From Dyella jiangningensis (GTDB lineage: Bacteria > Pseudomonadota > Gammaproteobacteria > Xanthomonadales > Rhodanobacteraceae), in NCBI RefSeq assembly GCF_003264855.1, contig NZ_NFZS01000005.1, forward strand, positions 124,001 through 188,000: 64,000 bases of DNA. The letters run 5' to 3'. Position 1 is the stretch's first letter; the number at the start of each line of letters is the position of its first letter. Made by a program: the position numbers and the translations under genes. Shown here one piece after another: positions 51,751 to 63,577 of the stretch. Under the pieces are notes generated by a model that saw only the letters and a list, made by a program, of their open reading frames with translations, searched no databases and was not told the DNA's origin.

Positions 51751-54481
<2,731 letters not shown>

Positions 54482-54590: not shown

Positions 54591-54891
54591 TCACATCTCG
54601 TCGACCACGGTATTGCGCAGCGTGCCGATGCGTTCGATCGTTACTTCGCACACATCGCCGGCCTTCATGTAGACCGGCGGCTTGCGGCCGTAACCCACGC
54701 CCGACGGCGTGCCCATCACCAGCACGTCTCCCGCTTCCAGCGTCATCGCCTCACTGAGCAAGGCGATGGTGCGGGCCACGCCGAACATCGCCCGGATACC
54801 GCGCGTCGTCGTCGAAGCGCGCGCAAAAACCATCACCGGTATCCACCGCCAGACCCGCGCGGTCGCCTTGCTGGAAGCGCAGGAATCGCAT
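54591..54891 (-). pseudogene. Remnant of a fumarylacetoacetate hydrolase (FAH) family gene
   Basis: Two pieces of one gene are fused. The start, with GGAGGG before the ATG, reads MRFLRFQQGDRAGLAVDTGD and continues to about residue 33, as in the N-terminus of FAH proteins. The second piece, in another frame, reads FGVARTIALLSEAMTLEAG, VLMGTPSGVGYG and ends IGTLRNTVVDEM, the FAH C-terminus. The middle, with the metal ligands, is gone and the frame changes at the joint, so the first frame stops after 46 residues. An internal deletion is the simplest explanation. Confidence 0.8.
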
Positions 54892-54973
54892 ATCGCCCTC
54901 CAGGCACGCGGGTGACCGAGGCGCCCGCCATGATCGGGTCCGACGAGCTTACTACGCGTGCGCGCTGGCCCCG

Positions 54974-55414
54974 TCAGCGACCGGCGCAGGCCATCGGCGA
55001 CGTCAACACACCGTTGGGCTCGCACGCGACAGGTTCGGCGCCGGGCTCCGGCATGGGCATGCCTGGCCGGTACGACGCATAGGAAGGGGCCGGCACCGGG
55101 TTGGCTGTTCCCGTACGCATCGCTGCCAGGGAAAACGCCGCCTTGGCCGCAAACCCAAGCGCGGTTGCCGATGCCTGCTCGGCAGGCGTAAGCCCATGAG
55201 GAAAGGCCGGTACAGGGCCATGTGGCATGGCCGGCGGCGGCTCGTTCGCCAGGGCAACGCTTCCGGCGAGCGGCTCGCGGTAACCCGCGCTGGACGGGTG
55301 GTCGTGCATCGCCGGCACTGGCGAATGCCCCATCGGCAGGCTTCCCTGCTGCGCGAACACGGGCGACGCCGCCAGACACGCCGCTCCAAGGAAAAACGCC
55401 AGGCTGCGCATCAT
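54974..55414 (-). CDS. Secreted Met/His/Pro-rich hypothetical protein
   Basis: A 146-residue protein with a clear signal peptide (MMRSLAFFLGAACLAASPVFA) and no recognised family. The mature part has loosely repeated His/Pro/Met patches: MGHSPVPAMHDHP, AMPHGPVPAFPHG and GMPMPEPG. Such composition could bind copper or other metals, but this is inference. An Ala-rich helix (EQASATALGFAAKAAFSLAAM) separates the patches. It is divergent from the borosin methyltransferase gene. Confidence 0.6.
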   Translation of the reverse strand: MMRSLAFFLGAACLAASPVFAQQGSLPMGHSPVPAMHDHPSSAGYREPLAGSVALANEPPPAMPHGPVPAFPHGLTPAEQASATALGFAAKAAFSLAAMRTGTANPVPAPSYASYRPGMPMPEPGAEPVACEPNGVLTSPMACAGR

Positions 55415-55620
55415 CTATCGCGTCTCCTCTTCATCCGTGGCAGGGAACCGATCCTGGCCGCGACTGTATCCGGTCGACCGCGTGCGCTCCACCGGGGTCG
55501 CGAGCCAGACCCTGCGATTCGTTCATGCCGCTGGCGGCCTGCGGAGCGCCGCCCTTATGCTGCGGCCGTCGGCTGACCTCGCCGCCGTCCCAGTCATTCG
55601 CGATCATGGAGCACAAGGCA

Positions 55621-56427
55621 GTGAACACCCCCTCCTCGACCGGCAGCCTCGCCTGCGTGGGCATCGGCATCACCCTGGGATCCCACATCAGCGCGCTGGC
55701 GCGCAGCCACATCGAGAAGTCCGACGTGGTGTTCACGGCCGTGTCCGACGGCATCGTCGAGCTGTGGCTCAAGGAAATGAACCCCGACGTGCGCAGCCTC
55801 CAGCCTCTCTATGCCGAGGGCAAACCGCGCCCGCAGACCTACCGCGAAATGGTGGAAGTCATGATGGCCGAGGTGCGCGCGGGCAAGCGCGTCTGCGGCG
55901 TGTTCTATGGCCATCCGGGCGTATTCGCGTGGGCGCCGCACCGGGCGATCAAGGTGGCGCGCGAAGAAGGCTACCCCGCGCACATGGAACCGGGCATTTC
56001 CTCCGAGGACTGCCTGTACGCGGATCTCGGCGTCGATCCCGGCAGGGTCGGCTGCCAGCATTTCGACACCACCCAGTTCATGCTGTTCCGCCGAAACGTC
56101 GACCCGAGTGCTTGGTTGATCCTGTGGCAGGTGGGACTGGCGGGCGAACAGACAGGGCGCCGGTTTGCCACGGGGCCGGCCTATCGCCAGGTCCTGGTGG
56201 ATGTCTTGCTACGCCATTACCCCGCCGACCACGAAGTGACGGTCTACCGTGCCGCCACCTTGCCGCTGCAAGCTCCGCGTATGGAGCAGCTGCCGATTTC
56301 GGGCTTGCCTGATATCGATCTCAGCATGTCAGATACCCTCGCGGTGCCGCCTTGCCGTGAGCTGGAGGTCGATGACGACATCCGGAATCGATTGACGGCG
56401 CTGGACGAAGCTATCGTGGCCGGCTAG
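55621..56427 (+). CDS. Borosin peptide backbone alpha-N-methyltransferase (SonM/OphMA-like)
   Basis: A 268-residue protein of the tetrapyrrole-methylase fold. It follows bacterial SonM and the catalytic domain of fungal OphMA along its length: SLACVGIGITLGS, LQPLYAEGKPRPQTYREM, VCGVFYGHPGVFAWAPHRAI, AHMEPGISSEDCLYADLGVD and LILWQVGLAGEQ. The OphMA catalytic Tyr66, Arg72 and Tyr76 correspond to Tyr64, Arg70 and Tyr74, and the GHPGVF Tyr is kept. It should use S-adenosylmethionine to methylate backbone amides of a partner peptide. No core peptide is fused. GGAG favours the GTG at 55621; an ATG at 55606 is possible. Confidence 0.93.
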   Translation: MNTPSSTGSLACVGIGITLGSHISALARSHIEKSDVVFTAVSDGIVELWLKEMNPDVRSLQPLYAEGKPRPQTYREMVEVMMAEVRAGKRVCGVFYGHPGVFAWAPHRAIKVAREEGYPAHMEPGISSEDCLYADLGVDPGRVGCQHFDTTQFMLFRRNVDPSAWLILWQVGLAGEQTGRRFATGPAYRQVLVDVLLRHYPADHEVTVYRAATLPLQAPRMEQLPISGLPDIDLSMSDTLAVPPCRELEVDDDIRNRLTALDEAIVAG

Positions 56428-56577
56428 CCGACCGCCATCGGCGACAGGTGTCATCTAGACATTTTTGCCTTAAAACAGAGCTATGATCGCTTTCTCCCAG
56501 TACTCCCCGGGGAGAGGGGAACGGCAAGTCGGAGGGGGGTGCGTCGCACTACACGACCATCAGGGGAAATCAAAGCC
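56428..56577 (+). promoter_or_regulatory. Leader region of the candidate borosin precursor
   Basis: A 150-bp gap between methyltransferase and precursor genes, long for an operon. It contains TAGACA (56456-56461) and TATGAT (56482-56487), a weak promoter pair with a 20-bp spacer, then a 12-bp palindrome CTCCCCGGGGAG near 56502-56513. The precursor may thus have its own promoter or an attenuating hairpin, which would raise precursor over enzyme. Confidence 0.35.
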
Positions 56578-56889
56578 ATGTCGAGCGTCATCGAGTTCTT
56601 GGAACGCCTGGGTACGGACGCGCTGCTGCGCCACGCGTCGCAGGAAGATATCGCCGTAGCACTGGAAGAGTCGCGGGTCGACGCCGATGTCGGCGCCGCC
56701 ATCATCGCGCGCAGCACGTCTGAGCTTTACGCGTTGCTGGGCCAGCGTCCGATGTTCCATGTGCAGAACAATCCGGGCCGCGAAGAGGAAGAGGAAGAAG
56801 AAGAAGGCGAGGAAGACGAGGAAGCACCGTCGCAGCGCAAGCTGGCGGGGCTGCCTTCCGCACGACGCACCGCGGTCGCGCAGGGTTAA
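56578..56889 (+). CDS. Candidate split-borosin precursor peptide
   Basis: A 103-residue protein next to the methyltransferase gene. Residues 1-54 (MSSVIEFLERLGTDALLRHA to SELYALLGQ) are helical and resemble the leader or borosin-binding domain of Shewanella SonA, including the starting MS, the F-x3-LG-x-DA-x-L spacing and a final L-x-x-L-x-G. The SonA core position corresponds to PMFHVQNNPG (58-67). Then comes a tract of eight Glu, Gly and five Glu/Asp, and a basic tail (QRKLAGLPSARRTAVAQG). The tract and tail have no SonA counterpart. AGGGGA precedes the ATG. Confidence 0.8.
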   Translation: MSSVIEFLERLGTDALLRHASQEDIAVALEESRVDADVGAAIIARSTSELYALLGQRPMFHVQNNPGREEEEEEEEGEEDEEAPSQRKLAGLPSARRTAVAQG

Positions 56890-56897
56890 CTCTTCCC

Positions 56898-58724
56898 GTG
56901 CCTCGGCAAGGCCAAACATGCCGTTGGACAGCCGTGGCAATGCTGCTGCTTGGCATGGTCGTGGGCGTGGCGAATGCCACGCCTGCGACGGACGTCCCCG
57001 ATCAACAGCTGAAGCGCGCCGACGCGATCAAGACCGCCGACCATGGCGCGTTCCTGAAAATCCTCCAGCAACTTGACCAGAATGCCGCCGACCTGCCCAT
57101 CGACGAGCAGTGGAAGCTGCGCTATCTCAATGCGTGGCAATTCGCCTTCGATGGCAACTATCCGCGAGCGACCTCTTCGCTGCGCACCATCGTCGAGCAG
57201 GCACCCGACAAGGCGCTTCGCCTGCGCGCGATCGGCACGCTGATCAATATCCTCGGCTTCGGCCACCGCTATGAAGAAGCCTTTATCCAGCTGAATCAGC
57301 TGTCGGAGCTGCTGCCGCAGATCACCGACAAGGAAGCGCGCTACGCAGCCATGGCGGATGTGGCGCAGTTTCTCATCATCGCCCGGCAGTACGAACAGGC
57401 GGTGGAATACGCCGACCAGATGATGAAGAGCGTGCCCGAAGGCATGAACGAATGTCGGGCCGTGTATTTCAAGCTTCATGCACTTTTCCACGGCAAGATG
57501 GTGCGGCTTTCGCAGGGCCAGCTGCAGGAAGGTGTCGATCTATGCATGAGCGCCAACGAATCGCTGTTGGCCAATGCCATGCGCACGGACATGGCTACGC
57601 TTGAGATTGAGCAGGGACGCCCGGCCGAGGCGGTACGCCTGCTGGAAGAGCATTACGCCGAAGTGCAGGGGTACGAGTACCCCGCGTTGATGCAGTACTT
57701 CAACGTGCTGCTCGCCAAGGGGTATTACCGCCTGGGCGATCTGGCGAAGTCCCGTCGATATGCGCTTGCCACCATCGCCAGCGCCGTGGAAAACGAGATC
57801 AGCGAACCGTTGGGACAAGCGTACGACCTGCTCTATCGCATCGAGAGCCAGCAAGGTCACGCGACGGAAGCACTCGCGTATCACGAGAAGTACATGGCGG
57901 CGGACAAGGGTTACCTTACCGACGTCAGCGCGGGTGCGCTGGCCTACCAGGCCGTCAAACAGCAGGTGCAGACCAAGAAGAACGAGGTCGACACGCTCAA
58001 CCGCCAAAACCAGATCCTGCAGTTGCAGCGCGAGCTCGACCACAAGGCGATGGAAACCAGCCGCCTGTACATCGCGCTGCTGCTGACCGTACTCGTTTCG
58101 GCCGGTTTCTGGCTGCTGCGCACCAAGCGCTCGCAATTGCGCTTCAAGCGACTGGCCACGCAGGACAGCCTCACGCATATCTGCAGTCGCCAGCATTTCG
58201 TCGACGAGGCGGAGCAGGTGCTGCGGCAGGCGGCGCGTACGACGCGCAGCGTCTCTCTGGTGTTGATGGATCTGGATCATTTCAAGCTGGTCAACGATAC
58301 GCATGGACACGTCATCGGCGACCTGGTGCTCAAGCGCGCCGTGGCGGCGTGCCAGCAGCACCTGCGGCGCAACGAGCTGTTCGGGCGCCTGGGCGGCGAG
58401 GAGTTCGCCATCCTGTTCCCCGAGTCCACGGCCGCGCAGGCGCAGGAGCGTTCGGAGCGGATCCGCCAGGCCATCGCCGCCACGCCGCTGTGGGGCGAGA
58501 CGCGGCACGTGGTGATTTCGGCCAGCTTCGGCGTGGCCTGCACCGACCGCAGCGGATACGAGCTGCGCCAGCTGATGATCGATGCCGACAACGCGCTCTA
58601 TCGCGCCAAGCGCGACGGACGCAACCGCGTGATCTACGGCGACGACATGGACGCCGCCGAGCTCGAAGCAAACGCGCTGCGCGAAGCCGCGCCCCGCGAA
58701 CGCCTGGCTGATCTGCCGCACTGA
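56898..58724 (+). CDS. Membrane diguanylate cyclase with periplasmic TPR-like sensor
   Basis: A 608-residue protein. A signal sequence or first span (TAVAMLLLGMVVGVANA) is followed by about 350 helical-repeat residues in TPR style, then a coiled coil (QVQTKKNEVDTLNRQNQILQLQRELD), one span (LYIALLLTVLVSAGFWLL) and a GGDEF domain. VLMDLDHFKLVNDTHGHVIGD and RLGGEEFAIL show an intact GGEEF active site, so it should make cyclic di-GMP. Start taken as GTG, eight bases after the precursor stop; they may share a transcript. Confidence 0.92.
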   Translation: MPRQGQTCRWTAVAMLLLGMVVGVANATPATDVPDQQLKRADAIKTADHGAFLKILQQLDQNAADLPIDEQWKLRYLNAWQFAFDGNYPRATSSLRTIVEQAPDKALRLRAIGTLINILGFGHRYEEAFIQLNQLSELLPQITDKEARYAAMADVAQFLIIARQYEQAVEYADQMMKSVPEGMNECRAVYFKLHALFHGKMVRLSQGQLQEGVDLCMSANESLLANAMRTDMATLEIEQGRPAEAVRLLEEHYAEVQGYEYPALMQYFNVLLAKGYYRLGDLAKSRRYALATIASAVENEISEPLGQAYDLLYRIESQQGHATEALAYHEKYMAADKGYLTDVSAGALAYQAVKQQVQTKKNEVDTLNRQNQILQLQRELDHKAMETSRLYIALLLTVLVSAGFWLLRTKRSQLRFKRLATQDSLTHICSRQHFVDEAEQVLRQAARTTRSVSLVLMDLDHFKLVNDTHGHVIGDLVLKRAVAACQQHLRRNELFGRLGGEEFAILFPESTAAQAQERSERIRQAIAATPLWGETRHVVISASFGVACTDRSGYELRQLMIDADNALYRAKRDGRNRVIYGDDMDAAELEANALREAAPRERLADLPH

Positions 58725-58790
58725 TCGAGCAGGTTTTCCTGCTTGCCGTTGCCGTGCCGCCGTTGACTCTTGTGCGGTCGGATCCGCGCC

Positions 58791-60410
58791 TTACTCGGCG
58801 GGCGGTGGGGCCAGTCGATCAAGCAGCGCCGCGTTGGCCTCGACCACCGGCGAAGGCATCAAGCCCACCCAGCCGTTGGCGAGCCTGACGGCGTTCTGCG
58901 TTCCTTCCGGCGCTGATCCGCGACCGGCATACGCCAGCAGGATGCCGTCGGGGTGCGCCTTGGCCCAGGCAGAGGGCTGGGTCGCCTCCGGTAACGGCGC
59001 GGGCAGCTGCGCGAGGAAGGTGATGACGCCCGGATCGTTGGGTATGCGCGCCACCGGCACGCCTTGCGCCTGCAGTTCGACCACGCGGCGCGCGACCTCT
59101 CGCGCATCCAGGGCCCCCAGCGCCTGCAGCCTCACCAGTGGCAGCAAGGCCATCGCCAGCAGCAAGGCCGCCAACGACGCGCGCTGCTCGGCGCGCAGGC
59201 CGCGGCTGGTCACGAGGAAAACGATGACCGCGAGCAGCAGGCCCGCGGCCAGCAGGTAGAGCCACACCACCGTGTGTCGCTGCAGGATGCCACGGCCGAT
59301 GGGTTCGGGGCCAAACATCGCCCACGCCAGCACGCCCGCGACCAAGGCGATCATGATGCCCATGCGTCGGATATCCAGCAGGCCCGGCTCGCTTCTCAGC
59401 CAGGCGCCCAGCAGGATGGCCGTGCCCGGCATCAGCGGCAGCAGGTAATGCAGCTGCTTGCCGCTCACCACGCAGAACGCGAGCAACGCCGGTACACAAG
59501 CGCATGCGCCGAAGCGCGCGGCGCGCGAGAGCCGTGCGCCGCGCATCGCGTTCGGCAAGCGGCGCCAACGCAGCAGCACGGGCCATGGCAGCAACAGCAC
59601 GGGCACCCATGGCAGGTACCACCAGACCGGGCGGTTGTGCGCAAAGCTCTGCACTACCCGACCCGCGGTCTGCCGCAGCAGCAGGTTATTGGCATCCGCG
59701 GCGCTGAGATGATGGACCGCGGCCCACGCCCAACCGAGCACCGGCAGCGCGCCCAGCACGGCCGTAAGCAACATCGCCAGCACGCGGCGCCATGAAGCGC
59801 GCTGCCCTTGAGCTGACCACCATGGCGCCAGGATGATGGGGCCGGCCAGGTGCAGCAGCATCACCGGACCCTTCGCGAGCAGGCCAAGCGCGCTTGCCGC
59901 GAACAGCAGCCACAACGCGGCCGGCCGCCCTTCGCTCACGTAATCCGCGATCGCCACGAAGCCGAGCAGCACGCACAGGCACAGCAACACGTCGAACATC
60001 ACCACGCCGGAGAACAGCACCAGGAAAATCATGCCCAGCAGCATCCAGGGCGCTTGTCCGTTGTCTGCGGGGGAAAGCCGCTTTTCCAGCCGCTGGCACA
60101 AAGCCACGCAGCCGAGGCCGCACAACGCCACCAGCGCGCGCGAGGACCACAGCGAAACGCCCAGCACGCTCCAGGCGAGGTTCAACAGCCAGAACAGCAG
60201 CGGCGGCTTGTCGAAGTAAGGCGTGCCGTTGAGATGCAGCGTGATCCAGCTGCCGGTCTGGCGCATCTCCCACGCGATGCTCAGGTAACGCGTTTCATCG
60301 ATGGGCACCGGCGGCAGCACGACGAGCAGCGGCAGCAGCGCGAGCAGCCACAGCGCCGGCGGAATCTGCAGCTGACCGTCACGACGAAACCGGAAGTCCA
60401 TGTCGTCCAT
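58791..60410 (-). CDS. ArnT-like glycosyltransferase family 39 membrane protein
   Basis: A 539-residue polytopic protein of the GT-C class. The first periplasmic loop has the acidic catalytic motif IDETRYLSIAWEM, followed by GTPYFDKPPLLFW, both typical of ArnT/PMT-like transferases that move a sugar from a polyprenyl phosphate to lipid or protein. About twelve spans follow; the C-terminal 100 residues are soluble. Acceptor and sugar are unknown. It is convergent with the cyclase gene; the gap has only a weak AGCAGG/CCTGCT hairpin. Confidence 0.88.
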   Translation of the reverse strand: MDDMDFRFRRDGQLQIPPALWLLALLPLLVVLPPVPIDETRYLSIAWEMRQTGSWITLHLNGTPYFDKPPLLFWLLNLAWSVLGVSLWSSRALVALCGLGCVALCQRLEKRLSPADNGQAPWMLLGMIFLVLFSGVVMFDVLLCLCVLLGFVAIADYVSEGRPAALWLLFAASALGLLAKGPVMLLHLAGPIILAPWWSAQGQRASWRRVLAMLLTAVLGALPVLGWAWAAVHHLSAADANNLLLRQTAGRVVQSFAHNRPVWWYLPWVPVLLLPWPVLLRWRRLPNAMRGARLSRAARFGACACVPALLAFCVVSGKQLHYLLPLMPGTAILLGAWLRSEPGLLDIRRMGIMIALVAGVLAWAMFGPEPIGRGILQRHTVVWLYLLAAGLLLAVIVFLVTSRGLRAEQRASLAALLLAMALLPLVRLQALGALDAREVARRVVELQAQGVPVARIPNDPGVITFLAQLPAPLPEATQPSAWAKAHPDGILLAYAGRGSAPEGTQNAVRLANGWVGLMPSPVVEANAALLDRLAPPPAE

Positions 60411-60511: not shown

Positions 60512-63500
60512 TTACTGAAACCCCTTTGTCACACGCCCATCATCAGGTTGGTGTGAACGGCGCGAGGCAAGTCCGATCAGGGTGGGCAGCACCAGCAGCA
60601 CCAAGGGGTATTGCAGCGTGAGGCCCGCGATGATGGCGATGGCGAGCGGCTGCTGGATGCCAGCGCCCGCGCCCAGTGCGAGCGCCAGCGGCAGCAAGGT
60701 GAGAATCGCCGCCAGCGTGGTCATGGTGATCGGGCGCAGGCGATCGCGGCTCGCCGTGCGCAAGGCCTGGTGCAAGGGCATGGTGCGAGCGAGCGTCACG
60801 TATTCGGACACGAAGAAGATGGCCATCTCGGTGCCCATGCCGATGATCATGGTCATGCCCATCATCGCGGTGATGTTGAGGTCGACGCCGCACAGCCACA
60901 GCGCGATGAACACCGCCGTGGCCGAGAACAGCGAGCACGCCATCACGATGACCGCCAGCCCCGGCCGTCCATACAGGAACAGGAGAAGTACGAATTCGGC
61001 CACCAACGCCAGCAGGAACACCTTGGTGAGCCCGACGAACGCGATCTGCTGTTGCTGGTAGAGCCCGCCGAGTTCGTAGCGCATGTCCGCATCCAGCATG
61101 CCGGGACGAGCCAGCAGCTTCTTCACGTCGGCGACGGCCGCGCCCATGCCGCGGCCTTCGATGCGCGCGGTGACGGCCACCATCTGCTGCAGGTTCTCGC
61201 GCGAGATCTGGGGCTGGCCGTTCTCAGTGGTGATCGTGGCGACGCGGCTGAGCGGAAACACATGGCCGTCCGGCGCACGGATCGGCAAGGCGAGCAATTG
61301 CGGCAGGCGCCACTGCATGGCATCAGGCATGCGCACGCGCACGCCCACGCTCTTGGTCGCCTGCGGCAGCTGCGTCGCGACGACGCCGGCGAGCGCGTTG
61401 TTCACCGCCTGCGTGATGGCGCCCACCGTCATGCCTTCGACGGTGGCCTTGTCCGCATCGACCTGCACGTTCAACGCATCGCCGGCCAGTTGCACGCCGT
61501 CCTTGATTTCCACCACGCCGGGAATGTCGGCCAGCGCCTTGGCAATCTTCTGCGCCTGCGGCACGAGCTGCGTGGGATCGACCGCGTACAGCTTGATCTC
61601 GATCGGCTGCGGCACCGCGGTGAGATCGCCGATGAGGTCTTCCATCAACTGCGCCAGCTCCACCTGCACGCCGGGGACTTCGCTCTCCACATGCTGGCGC
61701 ACGTCGCTCATCACGTCCTCGGTGGCACGCGCATGATCGGGCTTGAGCCGCACGAAGAAATCGCCGTGGTAGGACTGCCCCAGGTCACCGCCGAGGCCAG
61801 TGCCCAGGCGGCGCGAGAACGTGTCCACTTCCGGCATGCTGCGCAGGATGCCTTCGACCTGGCCGATCTGCCGCGCGGTTTCAGGCAGCGAGGTGCCGGG
61901 CTTGGTGTAGTAGTCCATCACGAAGCCGCTTTCGTCGACGGCGGGCATGAAGCCGGTGGTCACGTGCGTGTAGGCGATGGCGCCGATCACCAGCAACGGG
62001 GTGACGATCAGCAACAGCCATGCGGGCCGACGCGACAGCCCGTCATACAGCCGGCCGTGCCAGCGCGACAGCCACTGGTCGTGCGTGAAGCCCGGATCGT
62101 GCCAGCGCTTGAAATCCACCAGCCAACGCAGCAGCGGCGGCACCACCCACGCGCTGGCTAGCCAGGACACGGTGAGTGCGGCGGCCATGGTGAGCGACAA
62201 CGCCTTGGAGAACGATCCGGTCACGCCGCTCAACAGGCCCAGCGGAATGAACACGATCAGCGTGGCCAGGCTCGATCCGGTGAGCGGTGCGAGAAATTCG
62301 CGCGCCGCCGGCAGCACCGCTTCCTCGCCACCGCCTTCGGCGGCGCCGGCGCGACGGGCCACGTGCTCCACCATCACGATCACGTCGTCGATCACCAGAC
62401 CCACGGCGGCGGCGATGCCGCCGAGCGTCATGATGTTGAAGCTCATGCCGAACACTTGCAGCAGCAGCACGGTGACCGCGAGCGTCAGCGGCACCACCAC
62501 CATCGCGATCAGCGTGACGCGCAGGTTGCGCAGGAACAGCAGCAGCACCGCGGCAGCCAGCAGCAGGCCGATCAGCACGGCGTCGCGCACGCTGTGCGCG
62601 GACTCCACCACCAGCTCGCTCTGGTCGTACCAGTTCTTCAGCCTGACGCCGGCAGGCAGGCGGAACGCCGCCAGCTTTTGCCGCACCGCGGCGGCGATCT
62701 GCACGGCATTGCCATCCGGCTGCTCGTAGACGTTGAACAGCACGGCGGGCTTGCCGTCCTCGCTTACCTTGACCCATTGCGGCACGTAGCCCGCATGGAT
62801 ATCGGCGACATCGCCAAGGCGCACCCAGCCGTGCGGATCGTTCTTCACCACGATCTTGCGCAGCGCCTCGATGTGCTGCAGCGAATGATCGGCCACCACC
62901 AGGTACAACTGGTTGCGATCCTGCAGGCGCCCCACGGCTTCGAGCTGGTTGGCACCGGACAGCGCCGACACCAGGTCATCCAGACCGAGGCCGTATTGCG
63001 CGAGCTTGCGCGGATCGGCATCCACCTGCAGTTCGGCGGTCTCGCCGCCCTGCACGTCCACACGCGCCAGTCCATCGACCGACGCCAGCAGCGGCACGAT
63101 CTGGTATTGCGCAAGATCGCGCAGGGCCACCGGCGACAGGCTGTCCGACTGCAGCGCATACGAGATGATCGGGAACACCGTGGGATCCATGCGCCGCACG
63201 TTGTACGTGGCGCCGGGCGGCAGGCTGGGCAGCACGCGTGCGATGGCCGCATCGACCTGCAGGGTGGAGGCGATCATGTCGCGCCCCCAACCGAAATCGA
63301 CCGAGATCTGTGCCGAACCGCGCGTCGTATCCGAACGCACATTGGCCACGCCGGGCACGGTACGGATGGCTTCCTCGACGGGGCGCGTCAGCAGCAGCGC
63401 CGTCTGGTCCGCCGGACGATCGCCGGCATCCAGGTCGACCACCACGCGTGGAAACGACACCTGCGGGAACAGCCCCACCGGCAGCGTGAACGAACTCGCC

Positions 63501-63577
63501 AGACCCGCCAGCGCCAGCGCAAAGGCCACGATGACGATGGCACGCGCGTGCCTGGCCAGGAACGACGGCATGCTCAT
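60512..63577 (-). CDS. RND family efflux transporter permease
   Basis: A 1021-residue inner-membrane proton antiporter of the AcrB/CzcA superfamily: LPVGLFPQVSFPRVVVDLDAGDRPAD at the first periplasmic loop, GGIAAAVGLVIDDVIVMVEHVARR in TM4 with the proton-relay Asp pair, and GMGTEMAIFFVSEYVTLARTM near TM10-11. It is shorter than AcrB and its export substrate is unknown. Its ATG overlaps the stop of the adaptor gene (ATGA), so the two form an operon. Confidence 0.93.
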   Translation of the reverse strand: MSMPSFLARHARAIVIVAFALALAGLASSFTLPVGLFPQVSFPRVVVDLDAGDRPADQTALLLTRPVEEAIRTVPGVANVRSDTTRGSAQISVDFGWGRDMIASTLQVDAAIARVLPSLPPGATYNVRRMDPTVFPIISYALQSDSLSPVALRDLAQYQIVPLLASVDGLARVDVQGGETAELQVDADPRKLAQYGLGLDDLVSALSGANQLEAVGRLQDRNQLYLVVADHSLQHIEALRKIVVKNDPHGWVRLGDVADIHAGYVPQWVKVSEDGKPAVLFNVYEQPDGNAVQIAAAVRQKLAAFRLPAGVRLKNWYDQSELVVESAHSVRDAVLIGLLLAAAVLLLFLRNLRVTLIAMVVVPLTLAVTVLLLQVFGMSFNIMTLGGIAAAVGLVIDDVIVMVEHVARRAGAAEGGGEEAVLPAAREFLAPLTGSSLATLIVFIPLGLLSGVTGSFSKALSLTMAAALTVSWLASAWVVPPLLRWLVDFKRWHDPGFTHDQWLSRWHGRLYDGLSRRPAWLLLIVTPLLVIGAIAYTHVTTGFMPAVDESGFVMDYYTKPGTSLPETARQIGQVEGILRSMPEVDTFSRRLGTGLGGDLGQSYHGDFFVRLKPDHARATEDVMSDVRQHVESEVPGVQVELAQLMEDLIGDLTAVPQPIEIKLYAVDPTQLVPQAQKIAKALADIPGVVEIKDGVQLAGDALNVQVDADKATVEGMTVGAITQAVNNALAGVVATQLPQATKSVGVRVRMPDAMQWRLPQLLALPIRAPDGHVFPLSRVATITTENGQPQISRENLQQMVAVTARIEGRGMGAAVADVKKLLARPGMLDADMRYELGGLYQQQQIAFVGLTKVFLLALVAEFVLLLFLYGRPGLAVIVMACSLFSATAVFIALWLCGVDLNITAMMGMTMIIGMGTEMAIFFVSEYVTLARTMPLHQALRTASRDRLRPITMTTLAAILTLLPLALALGAGAGIQQPLAIAIIAGLTLQYPLVLLVLPTLIGLASRRSHQPDDGRVTKGFQ

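Follow-up and report, generated by a model that had tools for sequence, protein, structure and literature searches.

A split borosin locus of Dyella jiangningensis adjoins a TPR-GGDEF sensor gene and may encode a peptide signal together with its receptor

The window analysed here is a stretch of 64,000 nucleotides of Dyella jiangningensis DNA, to whose positions the window coordinates below refer. A sequence-only reading of this DNA had proposed that an N-methyltransferase gene and a small precursor gene lie side by side in it, and both are found where they had been placed, the enzyme at 55606-56427 (+) and the precursor, a separate gene 150 bp downstream of the enzyme, from an ATG at 56578 to a stop at 56889. 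Absent from that reading was a third gene, 56898-58724, which begins 8 bp past the precursor stop. The start codons used are choices, and the open frames reach further upstream, to 55222 for the enzyme and 56539 for the precursor. The features of the locus are as follows.

55606..56427, + strand: SonM/OphMA-type peptide backbone alpha-N-methyltransferase, 273 aa, assigned by homology and intact Y69, R75, Y79 and Y101
56578..56889, + strand: borosin precursor, 103 aa, assigned by homologues, recurrence at loci and a SonA profile match
56578..56742, + strand: leader, the borosin binding domain, residues 1-55, five predicted helices
56749..56778, + strand: predicted core PMFHVQNNPG, residues 58-67, placed from the SonA position and conservation
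56782..56823, + strand: Glu/Asp-rich stretch, residues 69-82
56898..58724, + strand: TPR-GGDEF protein, 608 aa, with signal-like N-terminus, TPR sensor, TM helix and diguanylate cyclase domain
56979..58052, + strand: predicted extracytoplasmic TPR sensor, residues 28-385 approximately
57453-57455 and 57543-57545, + strand: invariant Cys186 and Cys216, within the TPR sensor
58065..58118, + strand: predicted TM helix, residues 390-407
58392..58406, + strand: GGEEF motif of the GGDEF domain, residues 499-503

The enzyme had been said to match SonM over its whole length, and a phmmer search against PDB sequences bore this out (E 2.5e-76 over residues 13-259), with dbOphM (5.5e-48) and OphMA (about 1.4e-45) as further matches. 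The Tyr-x5-Arg-x3-Tyr set and the Tyr preceding GHPGVF, both named in the sequence-only reading, are present as Y69/R75/Y79 and Y101, and all four residues are identical in 101/101 aligned enzymes. They are the equivalents of the SonM active-site residues Y58, R67, Y71 and Y93, whose roles are given in the available part of PMC8429565. The Pfam family of the enzyme is TP_methylase (tetrapyrrole methylase), and among NCBIfam models, none of which reached its cutoff, YabN came first at 4.6e-9, far below the cutoff; both points favour a cobalamin- or other tetrapyrrole-type methylase lying next to an unrelated small ORF. The top cobalamin methylase in the phmmer search, however, reached an E-value of 0.012, so that the profile comparison named in advance as able to overturn the borosin reading came out far on the side of SonM and OphMA. 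No diphthamide model appeared among the NCBIfam matches at E<=1. Given this gap in scores, the invariant borosin catalytic set and the SonA-type leader in the adjoining gene, we rejected the tetrapyrrole methylase identity, which we regard as hardly credible.

The precursor leader is predicted by AlphaFold2 to form helices at residues 2-13, 15-18, 22-31, 36-43 and 47-54. The single precursor searched against the PDB returned no relevant match, SonA not being found, and a profile of 13 mostly close-relative precursors likewise did not find SonA, giving weak low-complexity-like matches only. A profile of 26 precursors, SonA excluded, matched SonA with an E-value of 1.8e-14, in agreement with the SonA-like helical leader that had been claimed. 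Foldseek placed SonA chains at the top of its ranking for the precursor, yet with an E-value of 0.98 and with no match at E<=0.001. A chance small ORF was rejected on the profile match, on the 42 proteins homologous to the precursor, and on the presence of a leader-bearing ORF at 92 of 101 loci (the window and 100 loci of relatives). The predicted core lies at the SonA core position, and P58, F60 and P66 are identical in 43/43 similarity-selected homologues. The precursor lacks a signal peptide, and precursor and enzyme are both devoid of export signals. Elsewhere among the related precursors, long lysine-rich tails replace the acidic ones (L181:6414-6845 and L211:6467-6898), and segments repeated internally after the leader may represent several cores (L095:7361-7780 and L204:5569-6129).

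The proposal of a split borosin system, with methyltransferase and precursor encoded separately, is supported by these SonM and SonA matches. By homology, enzyme and precursor add one more member to the known family of type IV split borosins; backbone N-methylation by the enzyme is likely, in the short stretch of the precursor that comes after the leader. That bacterial examples are few, as had been stated, did not hold: the enzyme is encoded in 75 of the 119 genomes of our relatives search, and at least 6994 proteins reach E<=1e-20 among the best 7999 matches listed. Imani 2022 and Cho 2022 are reportedly the genome-mining papers on borosins. Bacterial borosin types IV-X are covered in the consulted portions of two reviews (PMC11285071, PMC11395268).

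The third gene encodes a GGDEF domain (Pfam 7.8e-42; NCBIfam TIGR00254 6.1e-45), and GGEEF is intact in 106/106 full-length sensor ORFs. By domain and signature motif the protein is a putative diguanylate cyclase that would synthesise c-di-GMP. Its signal-like N-terminus ends in ANA. We aligned 125 sensors, 93 from the 101 loci and 32 added later (29 from L221-L249, two from L220 and one from L212); by hydropathy, a hydrophobic N-terminal segment occurs in 111/125 and a TM segment in 125/125. The TPR region was modelled with a mean pLDDT of 93.5 as a TPR superhelix, a fold that resembles peptide-bound Rap, NprR, PlcR and AimR, with APPBP2 and APC/C chains ranking higher. In the 125 sensors, twelve positions of the stretch 28-385 show conservation of 90% or more. 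Among them are C186 and C216, identical in 125/125, which likely form a periplasmic disulfide.

The linkage of the three genes was followed through 103 enzyme matches in the 75 genomes, the window's own included. Two of these matches share one locus (L068) and one (G079:C32, at L220) lies outside the set, giving the 101 loci. A full-length TPR-GGDEF gene is present at 93/101; eight lack a full-length sensor, one of them (L041) ending at a contig end. Precursor and sensor occur together at 85 loci, on the same strand in every case, and the coordinates of the precursor stop and the most upstream possible sensor start differ by a median of 11. The order at these loci is enzyme-precursor-sensor in 75, precursor-sensor-enzyme in six, and other or unresolved in four. 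In the best 80 of 567 loci, a set that overlaps the 101, the leader was found in 78 and the sensor in 73. Counted by genome, 69 of the 119 have enzyme and sensor, six the enzyme only, two the sensor only and 42 neither; the corresponding Fisher P of 3.6e-23 is nominal and overstates independence, because the genomes are related. The six enzyme-only genomes are those that fail the E<=1e-10 cut for the TPR part, and some of their loci do carry a TPR-GGDEF gene by full-length comparison. Among ORFs of at least 110 aa at the 101 loci we found no further conserved gene, the largest other family reaching 13/101 with overlapping frames set aside, and no recurring exporter or protease.

In the window's own genome, 19 proteins match the 608-aa protein and 17 of these matches cover no TPR part, leaving only two proteins that share it, one at each of two borosin loci. 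The second borosin locus lies about 90 kb downstream (G000:C5:270623-271402; L002, L032); its enzyme shares 62% identity with the first, and it has a precursor of its own, differing in the core, and a TPR-GGDEF protein of its own. Within the order, one locus (L125:4195-6771) holds TPR, GGDEF and methyltransferase naturally fused in a single 859-aa frame, which is preceded by a precursor leader. Three other genes near the operon may be mentioned. Upstream, at 52928-54481 (+), lies an ORF resembling a serine protease, in which Pfam finds a pro-kumamolisin activation domain (4.1e-10); it was left out of peptide maturation because a similar-looking family recurs at only 11/101 loci. A fumarylacetoacetate hydrolase domain is represented at 54594-55379 (-) by its C-terminal portion alone (Pfam 1.2e-18, matching profile positions 151-214 of 214), which may reflect a frameshift or the remnant of a gene. 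An RND efflux transporter is encoded at 60512-63577 (-) (Pfam ACR_tran 1.3e-202).

Turning to the sensor, 101 of its 132 matches have an enzyme match no more than 10 kb away. The remaining 31 form 29 loci, 27 of which hold a full-length TPR-GGDEF gene. Seventeen of these 27 orphan-sensor loci have no enzyme but keep a leader-bearing precursor, encoded upstream of the sensor in the same orientation; at the other ten the precursor was not detected. Since so many orphan sensors keep a precursor in this way, precursor and sensor are the most persistent unit of the system. The genomes of all 17 pairs encode the enzyme, according to the enzyme list of the 119-genome search. At one orphan TPR-GGDEF gene, itself intact, a truncated precursor-like ORF lies upstream (L227:4388-4663).

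Beyond the order, the enzyme was found in 10/369 sampled genomes of the class and 15/398 of the phylum. A TPR-GGDEF or TPR-kinase gene adjoins it at 13/20 loci, and neither neighbours it at the other seven (L214-L219, L261). Of the 13 TPR-bearing loci, nine have a precursor leader at E<1e-3, three a weak one and one none; at L252 the enzyme gene runs in the opposite direction. At four loci (L212, L213, L259, L260) the TPR region is joined to HisKA, HATPase and receiver domains, as in a hybrid histidine kinase, and L212 has a TPR-GGDEF protein besides; the TPR match is weak, 44 to 61 bits, at L213, L259 and L260. In L254 the gene order of the window is reproduced by relatives of SonM (1.2e-138) and SonA (6.7e-26) followed by a TPR-GGDEF gene. 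GGEEF is exact in 9/11 TPR-GGDEF proteins outside the order. The Cys pair is present in 12/15 of the sensors there, one of which (L212) is also among the 125, and is absent from the kinases of L213, L259 and L260.

Covariation gives a further view of the pairing. Distances between cores correlate with distances between TPR domains (partial r 0.30), but hardly with those between GGDEF domains (0.04). A clock effect may account for part of this covariation, given that control segments follow the TPR as well (0.18, 1/500; 0.14, 0/500) and that no such relation holds between core and enzyme (-0.14). The leader also co-varies with the sensor (partial r 0.54 given GGDEF), in a set that included 17 additional pairs, 16 of them orphans and one from L220.

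The reading we favour, with a probability of roughly 0.55, is that the peptide behind the leader is methylated by the enzyme and, once released, binds the neighbouring TPR sensor and changes c-di-GMP output. The three genes would be carried on one transcript; a sigma-70 promoter scan of 55400-58900 gave no site, so transcription as an operon is not supported by the scan. Methylation would fall on the core within residues 59-65, leader and tail would be removed by one or more unspecialised proteases, and PMFHVQNNPG or a similar peptide would be released. It would then pass to the periplasm, perhaps, to speculate, eased by its N-methylated backbone, a modification that can increase membrane permeability (PMC8429565, in the section available). 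There it would bind in the groove of its own TPR sensor and control the cyclase, altering c-di-GMP output, or phosphorelay output at the kinase loci. Where no methyltransferase adjoins the pair, the modification would be supplied in trans by an enzyme from another part of the genome. Transport is the weak point of this signal model: the precursor has no signal peptide, no exporter recurs, and the sensor is predicted to be extracytoplasmic. Also counting against the model are the ten orphan-sensor loci at which the precursor was not detected, the eight enzyme loci lacking a full-length sensor, the seven loci beyond the order with no TPR neighbour, and the rank of APPBP2 and APC/C chains above the peptide receptors. 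More broadly, and more tentatively, at somewhat less than even odds, the loci could constitute a Gram-negative pheromone system in which a ribosomal peptide is N-methylated, each precursor has its own extracytoplasmic TPR receptor, the outputs (diguanylate cyclase or hybrid histidine kinase) are interchangeable, and backbone methylation allows the membrane to be crossed without an exporter. If this is true, borosins of the SonM/SonA type would be c-di-GMP or phosphorelay signals, not antibiotics.

Other explanations have to be weighed against the favoured one. The locus could be an ordinary split borosin pathway making a secreted or intracellular metabolite, with the TPR-GGDEF protein coupling production to another stimulus and binding no peptide. 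Regulators are common in biosynthetic loci, and the adjacency of the TPR-GGDEF gene also fits a regulator; the precursor-sensor pairs kept at 17/27 loci without a nearby enzyme, and a core segment that tracks the sensor more than it does the GGDEF domain, are harder to accommodate, and we consider this account unlikely. It is quite improbable that the modified precursor acts whole, leader and charged tail included, as a partner of the sensor or the cyclase with no small peptide being released. This would sit well with the leader's covariation with the sensor and with the want of a recurring protease at the loci, and the accessible part of PMC12282931 describes a TPR-GGDEF cyclase under the control of a neighbouring gene's protein. 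The TPR domain is, however, predicted to lie outside the cytoplasm while precursor and enzyme carry no export signal, and the leader resembles the enzyme-docking domain of SonA.

The invariance of C186 and C216 is also what one would expect if the sensor read redox state or another small ligand through the Cys pair, with the borosin as an output or a bystander of the operon. A structural disulfide accounts for the pair equally well, though, and such a role would leave the orphan precursor-sensor pairs unexplained; nor does it agree with the three TPR-kinases at borosin loci that lack the pair, and we hold it to be very improbable.

Among the closest known systems is SonM-SonA of Shewanella oneidensis, a type IV split borosin (PMC8429565, as partly consulted), with which it shares separate enzyme and precursor, full-length enzyme homology, a five-helix leader and the Tyr/Arg/Tyr set. 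The spacing differs, Y-x5-R here versus Y58-x8-R67 in SonM, and the passages of PMC8429565 available to us do not discuss a TPR-GGDEF neighbour. The precursor differs from SonA in its core, its Glu/Asp-rich tail and its length (103 aa versus about 71). In fungal OphMA and dbOphMA the methyltransferase domain is homologous (E of about 1e-45 to 5e-48) and fused to its peptide, whereas here the precursor is a separate gene; according to the sequence-only reading, the Tyr-x5-Arg-x3-Tyr spacing of OphMA is that of the window's enzyme. A 2023 paper reportedly ties a split borosin pathway to a final product. As of 2021 none had been so linked, according to the part of PMC8429565 at hand, and no biological role was found stated in the borosin literature as partially available. 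A search for borosin together with GGDEF returned only PMC11395268 with both words. The Figure 1 legend of that review, the part seen, names a GGDEF-sequence-containing domain in a borosin architecture, possibly of the same kind as the L125 fusion, with the type unspecified, no TPR sensor named and no role proposed; part of the borosin-GGDEF link may therefore already be known. Titles and abstract openings in the literature on RiPPs with c-di-GMP or diguanylate cyclases, and on pheromones with tetratricopeptides and c-di-GMP, held nothing on such a pairing.

Among TPR proteins, the RRNPP receptors Rap, NprR, PlcR and AimR share the TPR superhelix with the sensor. RRNPP receptors are cytoplasmic and are not known to have a GGDEF domain, whereas the sensor is predicted to be extracytoplasmic and membrane-anchored. 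Judged by its predicted N-terminal and TM segments, it is not a cytoplasmic, unanchored protein and is not classed as an RRNPP receptor. In the RcbAB operon of Vibrio vulnificus, the product of the adjacent gene controls a TPR-GGDEF cyclase by way of its TPR domain (PMC12282931, in the portion seen). RcbB, however, is predicted to be cytoplasmic, and it is partnered by a TPR protein instead of a RiPP precursor. TPR-GGDEF proteins thus occur outside borosin loci too (PMC12282931), which counts against the signal model. Taken together, type IV split borosins are a known kind, from which this system departs by its pairing with a putative receptor. What this analysis contributes are the counts of paired genes, the orphan precursor-sensor loci, the exchange of cyclase for kinase and the hypothesis of a receptor, none of them claimed as a proven first. 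A partnership with a TPR sensor feeding c-di-GMP or a phosphorelay would name a receptor, predict a ligand and explain precursors without a nearby methyltransferase; if this is so, bacterial peptide signals would gain a further chemical class, and with it a kind of receptor open to direct test.
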